This document shows, piece after piece, positions 2,271-32,004 of a stretch of 33,469 nucleotides of DNA. Made by a program: the position numbers and the translations under genes. This DNA is from Oscillospiraceae bacterium (lineage in GTDB: Bacteria; Bacillota; Clostridia; Oscillospirales; Ruminococcaceae), in the NCBI GenBank assembly GCA_029068025.1, contig JAIEDJ010000304.1, forward strand, positions 1 through 33,469, given 5' to 3'. The number at the start of each line of letters is the position of its first letter. The stretch's first letter is position 1. The notes under the pieces are model-generated. The model ran no database searches. It was not told where the DNA came from and was given only the letters and a program-made list of their open reading frames with translations.

Positions 2271-3107
2271 TCACTTTCGTATAAACAGCACCCCGAGCGT
2301 GTCCTCGCCGCAGTGACACGCCACCGTGCAGCCCGCGTCGGTCGCCGCGATCTCCGAGAAGCTCTTGTACTTCGCGATCTCGGCGGCGGCGTGATCGGTG
2401 TTCTCCTTGGATGTGGTATGCGTGATAAAGATCAGATCCTCGTCCACATCCACGCCTGTCAGTCTGTCCTTCACATAATCATTGATGGTCTTTTCGATAC
2501 TGCCGCGGTACTTCTTGATAACCTTCATCTTGCCGTCAATAACAGCGATACACGGCTTAAGCTTCAAAAGATTCGCTCCCAGCGCCGCGATGGACGAGCA
2601 GCGCCCGCCCTTGTGGAGATACTCCACATTAGCAACGAAGAATGTCGCGTCCACCTTGGGAATGATCTCCCCGAGAGCGGTGACGATCTCATCGGCGGAC
2701 AGTCCCTTTGCCGCCAGCTTAGCCGCCGAAACGGCGACCAGACCCTCGCCCGTGGAAAGATTCCTCGAATCCACCACCCTGACGTTCGGGAAGTCCTCCG
2801 CCGCGATCACCGCGTTCTGATACGTGCTGGAGAAATCCGAGCTGATCGTGATCAGCACAAGCTCATCGCACTCCTTGAGCTGCTCGGTGAAAAACCTTGT
2901 GAAATCGTCGATATTTACCGCCGCCGTTGAGCACAGCTTTCCGGTAGACCGATAATGCTCGAACACGTCCTTCTGTGTGATCTCAACGCCGTCCTTGAGC
3001 GTTTCGCCGCCCTTGTTCACATACAGCGGAACAACACTGATATCATACCTCTTCTTCAATTCCTCGGACAGATCGCAAACGCTGTCCGCACATATCTTGA
3101 CTTTCAT
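2271..3107 (-). CDS. DegV family (fatty-acid binding) protein
   Basis: MKVKICADSVCDLSEELKKRYDISVVPLYV...; STAAVNIDDFTRFF; HKGGRCSSIAALGANLLKLKPCIAV. Start placed at the internal Met with AAGGAGGAT just upstream rather than the longer ORF start at 3155. Confidence 0.9.
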   Translation of the reverse strand: MKVKICADSVCDLSEELKKRYDISVVPLYVNKGGETLKDGVEITQKDVFEHYRSTGKLCSTAAVNIDDFTRFFTEQLKECDELVLITISSDFSSTYQNAVIAAEDFPNVRVVDSRNLSTGEGLVAVSAAKLAAKGLSADEIVTALGEIIPKVDATFFVANVEYLHKGGRCSSIAALGANLLKLKPCIAVIDGKMKVIKKYRGSIEKTINDYVKDRLTGVDVDEDLIFITHTTSKENTDHAAAEIAKYKSFSEIAATDAGCTVACHCGEDTLGVLFIRK

Positions 3108-3118
3108 TTTATCCTCCT

Positions 3119-3300
3119 TATCTAAAAGAATTTCAAATTTCTCACTTGACTGCACGCTCCGCGCCTTTGGCGCTCCGCTTAGCAGCCAAGTGAGAACCGG
3201 TCGAAATTAAAATTTCGACCTATTTGAAATTCACTGGGTTATCGTTCGTTGCTCTTGGCATAAGATCCTTTGCTGCGTATTTTAAGCGTTGATCTTGGCT
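3119..3300. repeat. Structured dispersed repeat, copy 1 (three-way junction + GTTGNTCTTGGC tail x2)
   Basis: Outer stem GAATTTCAAAT 3128-3138 / ATTTGAAATTC 3222-3232; hairpin I TTCTCACTTG 3139-3148 / CAAGTGAGAA 3187-3196; hairpin II GGTCGAAATT 3199-3208 / AATTTCGACC 3211-3220; tail motifs at 3248-3259 and 3288-3299. Confidence 0.85.
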
Positions 3301-12006: not shown

Positions 12007-12027
12007 AAATTAAAATAGGTGATACAT

Positions 12028-12360
12028 ATGAAGTATTTTATTAGTAACGGCGAACGACACGGAACGGTCTATCACGAGTTCGTACAAGGCGAGTGGGACG
12101 AAGAAGCGATGATCTTCTGGAGCGACGATTCGCTTTATCTCCATGACAATGTTATGTTCGAGCTTCACAAGCTTTTCAAGGCGGCTAATGTCGAATTCGA
12201 CCGCTTCGATGAGACTGTGATCACGCTCGACGACTGGAACGCTCTTGTAAAACGCGCCGGCGAGCTCGGCGGCGAAATTCTTGAATTAATTGAAGAACTG
12301 AAACCGTGGGCAGAGGAAAATTTCCGAAATAACAAGATTTTTACGATTCTCGGAATATAG
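12028..12360 (+). CDS. Small acidic protein, unit 1 of a tandem paralogue family
   Basis: MKYFISNGERHGTVYHEFVQGEWDEEAMIFWSDDSLYLHDN...WAEENFRNNKIFTILGI; homologous to both halves of the next ORF. Confidence 0.75.
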   Translation: MKYFISNGERHGTVYHEFVQGEWDEEAMIFWSDDSLYLHDNVMFELHKLFKAANVEFDRFDETVITLDDWNALVKRAGELGGEILELIEELKPWAEENFRNNKIFTILGI

Positions 12361-12368
12361 GTGATCGA

Positions 12369-13037
12369 ATGAAATTCTTTGAAACCGGAATTAAAGGCAG
12401 CTGTTACATCGAATTTGTTCAAGGAAAGTGGACCGGAGAACATTGGAATGTTGATTCGCTGTATCTGCACGATGATGATTTCTTTGGACTTGAGGCATAC
12501 ACAAATCCGTTTACAGAGGTGATCCCGAACTTTGCACATTGGGGTGTGACAGAGGTCACTTTTGATGATTGGAAGCGCATTGTCGAGGTCTCTCGGAAAC
12601 TCGACAATGAAACCAAGAAAATTATCAAAGAGCTGCGTCCATGGGCTGAGAAGAATTTCCGCAGCAATGATGTTTTCACGATCATCGGGATCATGGAAGG
12701 TCGGAAATTTTTCAGAACCGGGATCAAAGGCGGCTGTTACAACGAGTTTGTTCAGGGCAAATGGACGGACGGTGATCGGGAGCATTGGAGCGCCGATTCG
12801 CTGTATCTTTATGATGAGGTGTTTGAATTCCTTGATCTTTACACAAATTTGTTTGCAAAAGTGATCCCCAATTATGCGCATTTTGGCGTGACCGAGGTCA
12901 CCTGTGATGATTGGAAGCGGCTGGTTGAGATCTCACGCGAACAGGGCGGCGAAATTGAAATGCTTATCGAAGAATTGCGTCCATGGGCAGAGGAAAATTT
13001 CCGTAAAAACAAAATTTTTACGATCCTTGGAATTTAG
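12369..13037 (+). CDS. Two-unit fusion protein of the same family (units 2 and 3)
   Basis: Unit 2 MKFFETGIKGSCYIEFVQGKW...RPWAEKNFRSNDVFTIIGI followed in frame by MEGRKFFRTGIKGGCYNEFVQGKW...RPWAEENFRKNKIFTILGI. Confidence 0.8.
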   Translation: MKFFETGIKGSCYIEFVQGKWTGEHWNVDSLYLHDDDFFGLEAYTNPFTEVIPNFAHWGVTEVTFDDWKRIVEVSRKLDNETKKIIKELRPWAEKNFRSNDVFTIIGIMEGRKFFRTGIKGGCYNEFVQGKWTDGDREHWSADSLYLYDEVFEFLDLYTNLFAKVIPNYAHFGVTEVTCDDWKRLVEISREQGGEIEMLIEELRPWAEENFRKNKIFTILGI

Positions 13038-18796: not shown

Positions 18797-19489
18797 TCAC
18801 TTACTGTTAAATCCCGCTGTTTCCTCGGGAAGATACGTCCCGCAGTCGCCGAAACGTCTTAAAAGACTGCCGTACAGCTGCCATACCTCGCCGCGCGACT
18901 TCTCTATAAGCTGACGCGCGTATTTGCTGTGGCGCATATCCTCGGGGCAGCGACTCTCGATAGGCTCTCCTATCAGGATCTTCTGCCTCATCCCGAACAC
19001 GGAGGAATATGTACCGTACACCGCGCACGGCACTATCGGAACGCCCGTTTTCGCGGAGATCAGCGCCGCGCCGGGCTTGAATTCTCCGAGCCTTCCGTCC
19101 CGCGACAGCCCCCCCTCGGGGAATATCATCAGACTGCCGCCGTTCTTCACTATCCTTTCGGATATCTCAAACCATTCGCCGTCAGGCTCGTCCAGGCTTA
19201 TCGGAACAGTCCTGCACCACGCGATAAACTTGCCCGTCCGCTTCTTCTCATACCATGACCGCTTCACCAGCACCCACGGCTTATAGCGCCACAAGACAGC
19301 TCCGCAGAACGCGCCGTCAAAATGGTGCGTATGATTCGCCACATAAACGCAGGGCAGACCCTTCAGACGCTTTTTCAGCGTTTTATTCGCGTATATGATC
19401 TTCGGACGGAACAGAAAATATACCGTCCAGGTTATCAGCATTTGCCAGAACCTGCCCCACAGGCTCTGCTTACCGGGAGATCCGGCCAA
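18797..19489 (-). CDS. PlsC-like 1-acylglycerol-3-phosphate acyltransferase
   Basis: VANHTHHFDGAF (HX4D), MIFPEGGLSRDGRLGEFKPGAALISAKTGVPIVPCAV. Confidence 0.88.
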   Translation of the reverse strand: MAGSPGKQSLWGRFWQMLITWTVYFLFRPKIIYANKTLKKRLKGLPCVYVANHTHHFDGAFCGAVLWRYKPWVLVKRSWYEKKRTGKFIAWCRTVPISLDEPDGEWFEISERIVKNGGSLMIFPEGGLSRDGRLGEFKPGAALISAKTGVPIVPCAVYGTYSSVFGMRQKILIGEPIESRCPEDMRHSKYARQLIEKSRGEVWQLYGSLLRRFGDCGTYLPEETAGFNSK

Positions 19490-19502
19490 TTCAACCCGCC
19501 CC

Positions 19503-19680
19503 TTTATTTAAAAGAATTTCAAAATACACGTCACCACGGCACGCTGCGCTTAGCCGTGCTGACGGTACCGGTCAAAATTTTTCTTGAGAAAAATTTTGAC
19601 CTTTTTGAAATTCCTGCGTATTTTAAATGTTGATCTTGCCACAGTTTCTTTGTCGCAAATTTAAAGTGTTGTTCTTAGCT
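19503..19680. repeat. Structured dispersed repeat, copy 2
   Basis: Outer stem GAATTTCAAAA 19514-19524 / TTTTGAAATTC 19603-19613; hairpin I CGTCACCACGGC 19529-19540 / GCCGTGCTGACG 19553-19564; hairpin II GGTCAAAATTTTTC 19570-19583 / GAAAAATTTTGACC 19588-19601; tail GTTGATCTTGCC 19629-19640 and GTTGTTCTTAGC 19668-19679 (39-nt spacing). Confidence 0.85.
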
Positions 19681-19738
19681 ATAATGCTTTTGCCGCGTGA
19701 AAAAAGCCTCAACGGCAATGTTACCGCCAACATTAAAT

Positions 19739-19767
19739 ATTATAGTACAAACGGCGGTTTTTTTCAA
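19739..19767 (-). promoter_or_regulatory. SigA-type promoter of the acyltransferase-ACP-KS operon
   Basis: On minus strand TTGAAA (19762-19767) - 17 nt - TATAAT (19739-19744). Confidence 0.75.
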
Positions 19768-19804
19768 TGGACAAATAAGCTACACTTTGTCCCTTATTGT
19801 CCAT
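19767..19804. promoter_or_regulatory. Inverted repeat abutting the -35; possible operator
   Basis: ATGGACAAATAAG (19767-19779) / CTTATTGTCCAT (19793-19804), one-base bulge. Confidence 0.5.
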
Positions 19805-19946
19805 CTTGACGCTTTTTGTGGTTCTTTTATGCTTTTTTCTCCGATTTTAACAATTTTTTAAATGAATAAGGTCTATGTTCGTTATTTTGCATAAAGTTTG
19901 TTAATTTTTATTAATATTATTGATACCGGCTATAGATTCACACGCA

Positions 19947-20240
19947 AAGATCATTGTGACAAAAACGGCGCAAAGCTCCCAAGCCAAGATCAACGTGTCA
20001 AAAGTGTCACAAAGCACTAAAGCCAAGATCAACAGTCTAAACGCGCAGGAGAAATTTCAAAAAGCAGTCCAGAACGGAGAAGCGGAACGAAGTGAAGCGG
20101 AGCCGAGCGGGGCTGGCTAGGGCAGAGCAAAGCTCTGCCCGCTTTTGAAATTTCTTTTAGATAAACAGCCCTTTGTCAACATTATAAAACCAGCTTAGAT
20201 CGACGTGACAAAACCGTTACAAGCCCAGATCAACGTGAAA
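19947..20240. repeat. Structured dispersed repeat, divergent copy 3 (reverse orientation) with extended iteron tail
   Basis: Outer stem GAAATTTCAAAAAGC 20051-20065 / GCTTTTGAAATTTC 20141-20154; inner GGGCAGAGC-AAA-GCTCTGCCC 20120-20140; GATC cores of the tail iterons at 19949, 19988, 20027 (39-nt period) and degenerate ones at 20198 and 20228. Confidence 0.7.
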
Positions 20241-20252
20241 AACGGCAAAACT

Positions 20253-20534
20253 TTACTCCAGCTCCAGATCCTGAACAAGGCGCGAGACCTCCGCACGGCT
20301 GATCAGTCGGATTCCTTTTCTGATAAGCTCCGCGTCGGACGGATACAGCGAGCTTATCGGCGTTTTGTAGACTGCCAGAGGCTCGTCCGTACCCTCTTCC
20401 ATCAAAGCGATCTTACCGTTATATTCCTTCAGCACAAAGCATACCGCGTCGGCGGACGCGTCCGCGAGCCTTATAGTCTGTGCCGTCAGAAGCAGCGCAG
20501 CCGCCAGCGCTATGTGTTTTCCGAATTTTTTCAT
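20253..20534 (-). CDS. Small secreted/membrane-anchored protein, BofC C-terminal-domain-like
   Basis: MKKFGKHIALAAALLLTAQTIRLADASADAVCFVLKEYNGKIALMEEGTDEPLAVYKTPISSLYPSDAELIRKGIRLISRAEVSRLVQDLE; GGAGGG just upstream of ATG 20534. Confidence 0.6.
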   Translation of the reverse strand: MKKFGKHIALAAALLLTAQTIRLADASADAVCFVLKEYNGKIALMEEGTDEPLAVYKTPISSLYPSDAELIRKGIRLISRAEVSRLVQDLELE

Positions 20535-20605
20535 TGATGATCCCTCCTTGAAAAATGTAATAATATTGTTATTGGTCAAGGAGAAATTATTCCGGATATG
20601 TCGAA

Positions 20606-21637
20606 TTATGTTTTGCTCTTCCGCGTTCCCGCCAACAGGATCGCGCACATTATCAGCACGCACAGTGACAGCACCGCATTCTTCGAGAACGGCTCCGAAA
20701 CGGCGTTAGGAGCCATTACCGGGATCTCTGCCGCCGCGAATTCCCGTGAAAACGGCATTGCGATCAGCGCCGAAAGCGCCGCGCCCCCCGCCCTCGAAAC
20801 AAAGAATCTTCCAAGCGGGATCCCCTTTGCAAGCGACTTTATCTGCAAATGCACACATACTCCCCCGAAGCTCAGCAGCGCGGCGCACAGCGGCATTGCG
20901 TACCGTGTCGGAAGCACGCCATTTATGCGTGTGACCTCCATCATCGCGGGGAATATCTCGGCGCTGCCGAACAGCTTTTCAAACAGCATAAACACGCCGA
21001 CTTGTCTTAGTATCGCGGTTATAGCCGAAAACCCGACTATCATCACGCATACTGTGAACATCACCCTCGCGCTGCCCGTAACGGACGACAGGAACGCATC
21101 CGCGGACAGATCGAACCGCTCGTCCGAACTTGTGAGCTTAATTTCCCCGCCCGCGCGAACCGCCGCCGCGACCAGCAGCGACGAGAAAAAGCATGCCGCA
21201 AACAGCACAAGTCCCGCGCCGATGCTTTGAAACACGCACATTCCCGCGATCCCCACCACGAACGACGGCCCGCTCCCAAAACAGCAGCATAACATTCTCC
21301 CGGCGTCCTTTGCGGAAAGTCTGCCCTCAGCAACAAGCTCCGACAGGAGACGCGCGCCCACGGGATATCCGCCGATATTCGCGAGAACGAACACCGCACA
21401 CAACTCCTCGTCCATTCTCAGGAGCTTGGACATGGGAAAAGTCAGCGGACGCAGCGCAACGCGGTATAAGCCGCTTTTCTGCAAGTATATCGACAGTGCC
21501 GTAAACGCGAAAAGCGACGGAACTATCACATTAAGGCAATCCATGACCGCCCCGCCGACCGCCTCGGAAACCACCTTCGGCTCCGCTATCAGAAACACAG
21601 CGAATACCGCCAATACAATTGAGATCAAATACTTCAT
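20606..21637 (-). CDS. ylbJ: Sporulation integral membrane protein YlbJ-like (nucleoside recognition/gate domain)
   Basis: VMDCLNVIVPSLFAFTALSIYLQKSG, LANIGGYPVGARLLSEL, MLCCCFGSGPSFVVGIAG; multiple TM segments. Confidence 0.8.
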   Translation of the reverse strand: MKYLISIVLAVFAVFLIAEPKVVSEAVGGAVMDCLNVIVPSLFAFTALSIYLQKSGLYRVALRPLTFPMSKLLRMDEELCAVFVLANIGGYPVGARLLSELVAEGRLSAKDAGRMLCCCFGSGPSFVVGIAGMCVFQSIGAGLVLFAACFFSSLLVAAAVRAGGEIKLTSSDERFDLSADAFLSSVTGSARVMFTVCVMIVGFSAITAILRQVGVFMLFEKLFGSAEIFPAMMEVTRINGVLPTRYAMPLCAALLSFGGVCVHLQIKSLAKGIPLGRFFVSRAGGAALSALIAMPFSREFAAAEIPVMAPNAVSEPFSKNAVLSLCVLIMCAILLAGTRKSKT

Positions 21638-21655
21638 AATCACATACACCACATT

Positions 21656-22036
21656 TCAGCTGTCGGTCGAATTAACTCCCGCCACTCCGCCTGCCGTCCC
21701 GAAGAATACGCACAGCAGGGGTTTTATCAGCATCATTATGCTTCCTAATTGCCCGAAGATCACCGACAAAATCAGCGGAACCGCCGAGAACATCAGCCCG
21801 CAGAGTGCGCCCGTGCGCATCCCGTCCCGATGACGCAGCATTCCGGCGATCCTGCCGCACACAAAGCTCCCGAGCGACAGCGCGATCACAGAAGCCGCAC
21901 CCGCCGACCTTCCCGCTGAGTCCGAAAACGACAGCACCACGGCGGAAGCAATACTTATCAACAGCGTTGTCGCGCACCCTACCGCCATTCCGGCAAGGTA
22001 CGGCACATATCGTGAATTGATCTTCTTTTTCCGCAT
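21656..22036 (-). CDS. TIGR04086-like small membrane protein
   Basis: Four hydrophobic segments, LSLGSFVCGRIAGMLRHRDGMRTGALCGLMFSAVPLILS; AAGGAG just upstream. Confidence 0.6.
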   Translation of the reverse strand: MRKKKINSRYVPYLAGMAVGCATTLLISIASAVVLSFSDSAGRSAGAASVIALSLGSFVCGRIAGMLRHRDGMRTGALCGLMFSAVPLILSVIFGQLGSIMMLIKPLLCVFFGTAGGVAGVNSTDS

Positions 22037-22046
22037 ATTAGCTCCT

Positions 22047-22257
22047 TATCTGAAAAGAATTTCAAAATTCTCAATTGACCGCATTATGCTTCGCAAAACG
22101 CTCACGCTCCTCTCCGCTTGCGCTCCGTTACGCTTAGCCGTCAAGTACGAACCGGTCGAAAAAAATTTTTTTAATTTTTTCGACCTTTTTGAAATTCCTG
22201 CATCCTTATCGTGTTGATCTTGGCAAAGAAATCGCATTTATAGCATTGATCTGACCG
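22047..22257. repeat. Structured dispersed repeat, copy 4
   Basis: Outer stem GAATTTCAAAA 22057-22067 / TTTTGAAATTC 22187-22197; hairpin I TTGACCGC 22075-22082 / GCCGTCAA 22137-22144; hairpin II GGTCGAAAAAAATT from 22154 / AATTTTTTCGACC 22173-22185; tail GTTGATCTTGGC 22213-22224 and ATTGATCTGACC 22245-22256. Confidence 0.85.
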
Positions 22258-22350: not shown

Positions 22351-22379
22351 ATTATATTACAGAGAGCCGAACTTGTCAA
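22351..22379 (-). promoter_or_regulatory. Consensus SigA promoter for the TIGR04086-ylbJ-bofC-like locus
   Basis: On minus strand TTGACA (22374-22379) - 17 nt - TATAAT (22351-22356). Confidence 0.8.
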
Positions 22380-31763: not shown

Positions 31764-31784
31764 ACAGAGAACCAAAAACGCGTT

Positions 31785-31971
31785 TGATACTTATCCCGCT
31801 TAGAGTTTCCTATAAAAAGATAGGAAACTGTGCGGAAAGAGCCGCAATTATTTCAATAATCTAAAGCGGAATTAGTATGATACTTATACCGCTTAGAGTT
31901 TCCTTATAAAAAGATAGGAAACTGTGCGGAAAGAGCCGCAATTATTTCAATAATCTAAAGCGGGATTAGTA
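31785..31971. repeat. Two tandem copies of a palindromic element (93 and 94 bp) in the sigma-factor leader
   Basis: Copies 31785-31877 and 31878-31971 nearly identical; ends TGATACTTATMCCGCTTAGA ... TCTAAAGCGGRATTAGTAT form imperfect terminal inverted repeats; internal AGTTTCCTA/TAGGAAACT and TGCGG/CCGCA hairpins. Confidence 0.9.
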
Positions 31972-32004
31972 TAATCTCTCAATAAAAGCAAGGAGGTTTG
32001 TCCT

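Follow-up and report, generated by a model that had tools for sequence, protein, structure and literature searches.

The window analysed here is a stretch of 33,469 nucleotides on contig C228 of a draft Oscillospiraceae genome (G000; 2.58 Mb, 395 contigs, 81% complete). It carries three copies of a structured intergenic repeat, each directly before a gene (Table 1). A first-pass annotation made from the sequence alone had placed copies at 3119–3300, 19503–19680 and 22047–22257, and all three were confirmed by direct reading and re-found by repeat search. The motifs CTTAGC and ACCGGTC, listed there as shared, occur in every copy. The head and tail also said to be shared are less uniform. The head is exact in copy 1 but slightly different in copies 2 (TTATTTAAAAGAATTTC) and 3 (TTATCTGAAAAGAATTTC), and the tail reads exactly GTTGATCTTGGC in copies 1 and 3, whereas copy 2 has GTTGATCTTGCC together with an additional GTTGTTCTTAGC. 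This tail is a unit repeated a different number of times from copy to copy. The structure is as described in that annotation, but the informative strand is the minus strand, opposite to the earlier reading.

Table 1 Features of the window that bear on the repeat (positions within the window).
Feature	Position	Strand	Remarks
DegV-family gene, 3' of copy 1	2271..3107	-	Pfam PF02645
Shine-Dalgarno sequence (SD) GGAGG and start codon ATG (3107-3105) for DegV, right after copy 1	3105..3117	-	
Copy 1 core	3114..3234	-	99.2 bits in covariance model search
Order of parts in copy 1 core	3114..3234	-	Outer stem (P1); hairpin II (P2); CCGGT with its conserved GG; hairpin I (P3); TTTTAGATAA against GGAGG
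Copy 1 upstream repeat units	3235..3300	-	GCCAAGATCAACG...CGCAGCAAAGGATCTTATGCCAAGAGCAACG; small hairpin possible in each
Acyltransferase gene, led by copy 2	18797..19489	-	PF01553; TTG start at 19489; ACP and ketosynthase genes next
Copy 2 core	19500..19615	-	78.3 bits in covariance model search
Copy 2 upstream repeat units	19616..19680	-	
Promoter match 5' of copy 2	19739..19767	-	TTGAAA-17-TATAAT (11/12)
Type 2 relative with flanking repeat units	19938..20240	+	GATCAAC-type units
Divergent relative, type 2	20049..20168	+	GAAATTTCAAAAAGC...GCTTTTGAAATTTCTTTTAGATAA; 28.5 bits, E 0.0039; no SD after it here
DUF3792 protein gene, directly 3' of copy 3	21656..22036	-	ATG at 22036
Copy 3 core	22042..22199	-	76.8 bits in covariance model search; apical part of P3 longer
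Copy 3 upstream repeat units	22200..22257	-	
Promoter match 5' of copy 3	22351..22379	-	TTGACA-17-TATAAT, perfect (12/12)

On the minus strand each copy follows one order: a variable number of units of roughly 40 nt (GCCAAGATCAACG...CACGCAGCAAAGGCTCTT), the 5' arm of P1 (GAATTTCAAA), P2 (GGTCG...CGACC), the junction GGT, P3, the 3' arm of P1 (TTTTGAAATTC), and a terminal TTTTAAATAA that touches the Shine-Dalgarno sequence and initiation codon of the gene that follows. Not counting the variable upstream units, the element measures about 110–150 nt. Its placement against the SD in sense orientation, absent from the first-pass annotation, is its most telling feature. For the DegV gene we prefer the ATG at 3107 because the listed GTG start at 3155 falls within copy 1, which lies between two co-directional genes. 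Copies 2 and 3 are predicted 5' leaders because strong same-strand promoter matches precede both. No transposase was found among eight neighbouring proteins scanned in the window. On the strand opposite the acyltransferase gene, P2 followed by TTTTT at 19570–19601 (+) matches a terminator.

The common fold proposed earlier, an outer stem with two hairpins, appears in the minimum-energy fold of each copy (z -6.4, -6.5 and -2.5). The divergent reverse copy noted at about 19940–20240 folds similarly (z -3.0) and is detected by the covariance model (Table 1). It belongs to a second family (window 20049–20168; L360, L365, L349) with ends AAATTTCAAAAA/TTTTTGAAATTT and other hairpins but with the tail in common; its other copies also adjoin AATAAGGAG.

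Compensatory change that keeps pairing, proposed from the three window copies, is upheld by strong covariation across genome-wide and cross-species copies. In an arm-swap test, own-partner pairing of P2 and P3 arms (91–99% of positions) exceeded every one of 5000 shuffles, with the same outcome when the test was run separately in G000, G023 and G006. When 26 copies representing 11 species were aligned, with loops trimmed and short fillers in their place, 92.1% of cells paired and 22 of 32 pairs showed double changes. The alignment has 124 doubly changed cells against 37.5 in shuffles, and its score drops from 0.420 to <=0.147 when the 3' partner is slid by one column. As the copies are related, none of these controls gives an exact probability. 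In the alignment the GG left unpaired at the junction is also conserved. The A-tract preceding P2 is conserved from species to species, and whole arms have been exchanged between subtypes. These results support a dispersed family in which selection or structure-dependent replication preserves the fold by way of compensatory changes.

The element is abundant in G000. Its 20-nt outer end occurs 109 times (<=3 mismatches) in the 2.58-Mb genome, against once for a reversed control, and the exact pattern TTTGAAATTN{3,14}AATAAGGAG occurs 62 times and never in reverse. A covariance model made from 22 copies with trimmed loops (R1) matched 100 places at E up to 0.01. An ORF starts within 40 nt downstream in 56 of 65 parsed copies, and in 53 of the 65 an SD-like motif also directly follows the element. 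A stricter SD rule, satisfied by 10% of random positions in the same loci, is satisfied by 50 copies; the SD begins exactly 9 nt after the TTTGAAATT of P1 in 44 of them, and the other 15 copies are not at an SD. Among the 56 SD-class copies, 46 have a same-strand ORF within 300 nt upstream and 14 a promoter match. The downstream genes, as named from their sequences, are a mixed, functionally unrelated housekeeping set that includes tRNA synthetases and DNA repair, lipid, cofactor and membrane proteins. The SD may in G000 come from the element itself, because it reads AAGGAG in 82% of element genes and in 24% of 17 others. Predicted SD accessibility is higher in element genes (0.54) than in 17 other genes (0.34; p 0.002), weakly suggesting an opening or insulating role. 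Inspection by eye showed no pairing between the upstream repeats and the SD.

R1 also detects the element in other species of this uncultured gut-bacterial genus: it is present in 12 of 43 same-genus genomes, at 2 to ~100 copies per genome (in that run 83 in G000, 44 in G044, 42 each in G023 and G047, 23 in G006, 15 in G055, 10 in G054, and fewer in others). Beyond the genus, 294 genomes of the order gave no match in a shallow R1 search that scored only 13 candidates per genome. By one protein, the nearest relatives are uncultured Clostridia and Ruminococcus MAGs. Copies adjoin an SD in 13 of 19 cases in G006 and three of four in G018 (stricter rule), in all four sampled in G054, but in only 13 of 36 in G023 (stricter rule) and none of six sampled in G047, two species in which larger repeat units hold most copies. 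In G055, four units with a 124-bp period stand head to tail before one SD.

Larger units were seen in G023 (L211, L215, L217), where copies lie beside terminator-like hairpins inside a unit with ends near TCAGACTGTA...TACAGTCTGA, and 15–26 nt of the hairpin recur on the unit's other side. Ends of this kind number ~96 in G000, 36 in G023 and 51 in G006.

Comparison with other species points to turnover at individual sites. For 15 G000 genes that carry the element, orthologues were looked for in G006 and G013, and most of those found are without it. G006 and G013 are themselves sister species (~92% identical), and at most of 13 G006 element sites compared the G013 orthologue lacks the element. 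In six cases the SD and spacer of G013 are kept in G006 beside the element (GAAAGGATATTGTATG, AAGGAGTTGATTTATTATG, GGAGAATTGTGATG, GAGGAAATTATG, GAAAGGA..ACTTATG and GGAGC..ATG), and therefore the element in G006 commonly adjoins a native SD. These empty sites gave no clean target-site duplication, because of intergenic divergence, blurred left boundaries and an apparent G013 remnant (TGAAATTCAAATCAAAACAAGGAG, at the site of L247). Duplication of AGG/AAGG is hinted at three G000 sites only, e.g., AAAAGG|TAAGATC ... AAATAAGG|TAAAATTTATG. Between species, nine orthologous pairs of element-bearing genes were found, where independent placement among 2000 genes predicts 2.6, although the nine represent seven genes and are not fully independent. 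Copies are homogeneous within genomes, resembling those of their own genome. Elements standing at orthologous genes resemble each other no more than do copies picked arbitrarily from the two genomes, a pattern that accords better with repeated insertion or within-genome homogenisation than with simple inheritance.

Several known systems were compared. Small interspersed repeats are common in bacteria. REP and REPIN sequences are palindromic extragenic repeats mobilised by RAYT (Y1) transposases, and their folding matters for mobility. Mobilisation of this type was rejected here, as Y1 transposase does not follow the element's distribution: PF01797 is absent from G000 (81% complete), G023, G013, G018 and G024, five of the six genomes in which the element was first detected, and occurs once in G006. 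The window and seven related loci gave no Rfam match at the gathering threshold or at relaxed E-values, so the element is not already named there, and a blastn search with copy 1 gave no match in phages or plasmids. BOX, RUP and SPRITE of Streptococcus pneumoniae are intergenic repeats of ~100–200 bp whose strongly folded RNAs have paired ends and are cotranscribed with neighbours; BOX is modular, with one module variable in number, and the three are overrepresented between convergent genes, with abutment on SDs not reported (PMC3049150). In general architecture, the only level compared, our element resembles BOX in being modular, intergenic and folded, but most G000 copies stand at an SD in one orientation and cross-species covariation lies behind the fold. 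The bacterial MITEs Correia/NEMIS, ERIC and RPE are small, multicopy sequences with terminal inverted repeats and stable stem-loops, and Correia transcripts are proposed RNase III substrates (PMC2229807). The element is MITE-like in its ~100 copies, short length, lack of an ORF and P1 arms that form terminal inverted repeats. In contrast to those MITEs it showed no clear target-site duplication and no TA ends, and its junction with the SD is sharp and oriented. No transposase-bearing relative with matching ends was found, though some copies sit in the units with TCAGACTGTA ends. In marine Beggiatoaceae, 169 sets of TAACTGA direct repeats were reported in one genome, most just 5' of the start codons of unrelated genes, with a proposed role in translation; these are heptamers that often replace the SD (PMC4679880), whereas our element is a three-way junction next to an intact SD. 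A conserved fold in a predicted 5' leader, beside an SD and 3' of promoters, recalls riboswitches and other cis-regulatory leaders, and structure conserved by compensatory change is what a cis-acting leader RNA would show. Riboswitches, however, serve a coherent gene set tied to one ligand, which is not seen here; the element has ~100 copies before unrelated genes in one genome, is confined to part of one genus among the genomes searched and has no Rfam match. No described family was found that joins a covariation-backed three-way junction to near-exact, oriented SD placement at many unrelated genes, and no description of the element was found in a literature search that left most subscription papers outside its reach.

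We tentatively interpret the element as a dispersed, probably mobile, structured 5' leader whose action is in cis, on the cistron that follows, a reading held with slightly less than even confidence. Its fold is conserved, its position at SDs and its orientation are consistent, its copy number is high and its distribution among species patchy; its place in a transcribed 5' leader is predicted from promoter matches and operon layout. What we infer beyond this is mobility, action at the RNA level and the direction of that action. The element would be transcribed from the promoter or operon of its host gene and fold into the three-way junction, the 3' arm ending in an A/U-rich single strand that runs into the SD. 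Most likely, upstream RNA kept folded away would then leave the SD open, and/or an RNase or protein site on the element would set message stability and translation. Action would thus fall at translation initiation or mRNA processing, with the fold maintained by compensatory mutation. Some genes carry the element in several species, which favours such a leader. Against it, the downstream genes are unrelated and show no regulon logic, many copies lie away from an SD (15 of 65 in G000, 23 of 36 in G023 and six of six sampled in G047), nearly all copies are absent from the sister species, and long retention at one site is unsupported, orthologous copies being no more alike than random ones.

The main rival is a selfish mobile repeat, non-autonomous and inserting at the 5' edge of SDs, that would bring the gene no benefit and would need its structure for mobilisation, by way of an intermediate of folded single-stranded DNA or RNA. 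The element's spread over 12 of 43 genomes of the genus at such varied copy number, the six native SDs and spacers kept in G006, the four head-to-tail units before one SD in G055, the match of copies to those of their own genome and not to orthologous ones, and the hints of AGG/AAGG duplication all agree with it. However, no mobilising enzyme was found, with Y1 transposase lacking from the five genomes named above, copies within larger repeat units are not at AAGG sites, and target duplication is only hinted. We consider a purely selfish repeat a serious possibility, though one we would not favour. An attenuator or terminator of transcription before the gene is improbable: the A-tract/U-tract stem P1 lies around strong hairpins, and P2 with its TTTTT is terminator-like, yet the latter lies on the opposite strand, the U-tract is interrupted, P1 is A/T-rich and the element is common to unrelated genes. 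Attenuation is made less likely because copies 2 and 3 have no terminator-like site on the gene's strand. Within-genome homogeneity and the exchange of whole arms could reflect a functionless palindrome family, whose arms would stay paired through palindrome repair or inter-copy gene conversion and not through selection, but the many single pairs with both bases substituted in several species, the conserved unpaired GG and the precise SD placement leave this account little credence.

The cis-acting leader can be taken further, as a mobile RNA or DNA element that targets SD sites and spreads itself, bringing scores of unrelated genes under one structured translation-initiation leader with a new or rewired post-transcriptional network of global reach as the outcome in part of one genus. 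We regard this extended version as rather unlikely. Should the element act in cis, it would exemplify translational control assembled across a genome by mobile elements. A purely selfish element with such a leaning towards SDs would be unusual in how it chooses its targets. Both ideas are open to test in closely related species that differ in whether they carry it.

Smaller units recur around the element and elsewhere. In several copies (e.g., L009, L010, L024, L029) the apical loop of hairpin I encloses a further palindromic module, AATGCAGCG...CGCTGCATTTGG. A small palindrome, GCATTATGCG...CGCAAAACGC (window 22085–22130; L031:790–820), recurs in loops and at intergenic sites, including one locus without the main element. 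In a species without the three-way junction near the locus, a short unit at L031:700–880 has ends TCAGACTGTATA...TATACAGTCTGA, its right end directly before an SD (AAAAAAGGAGG) and start codon. Elsewhere in the window, 12019–13037 holds a tandem run of three paralogous coding segments (~110 codons each), of which two form a single fused ORF, and 31782–31975 holds two direct repeats with a 94-bp period 5' of a sigma-factor-like ORF.
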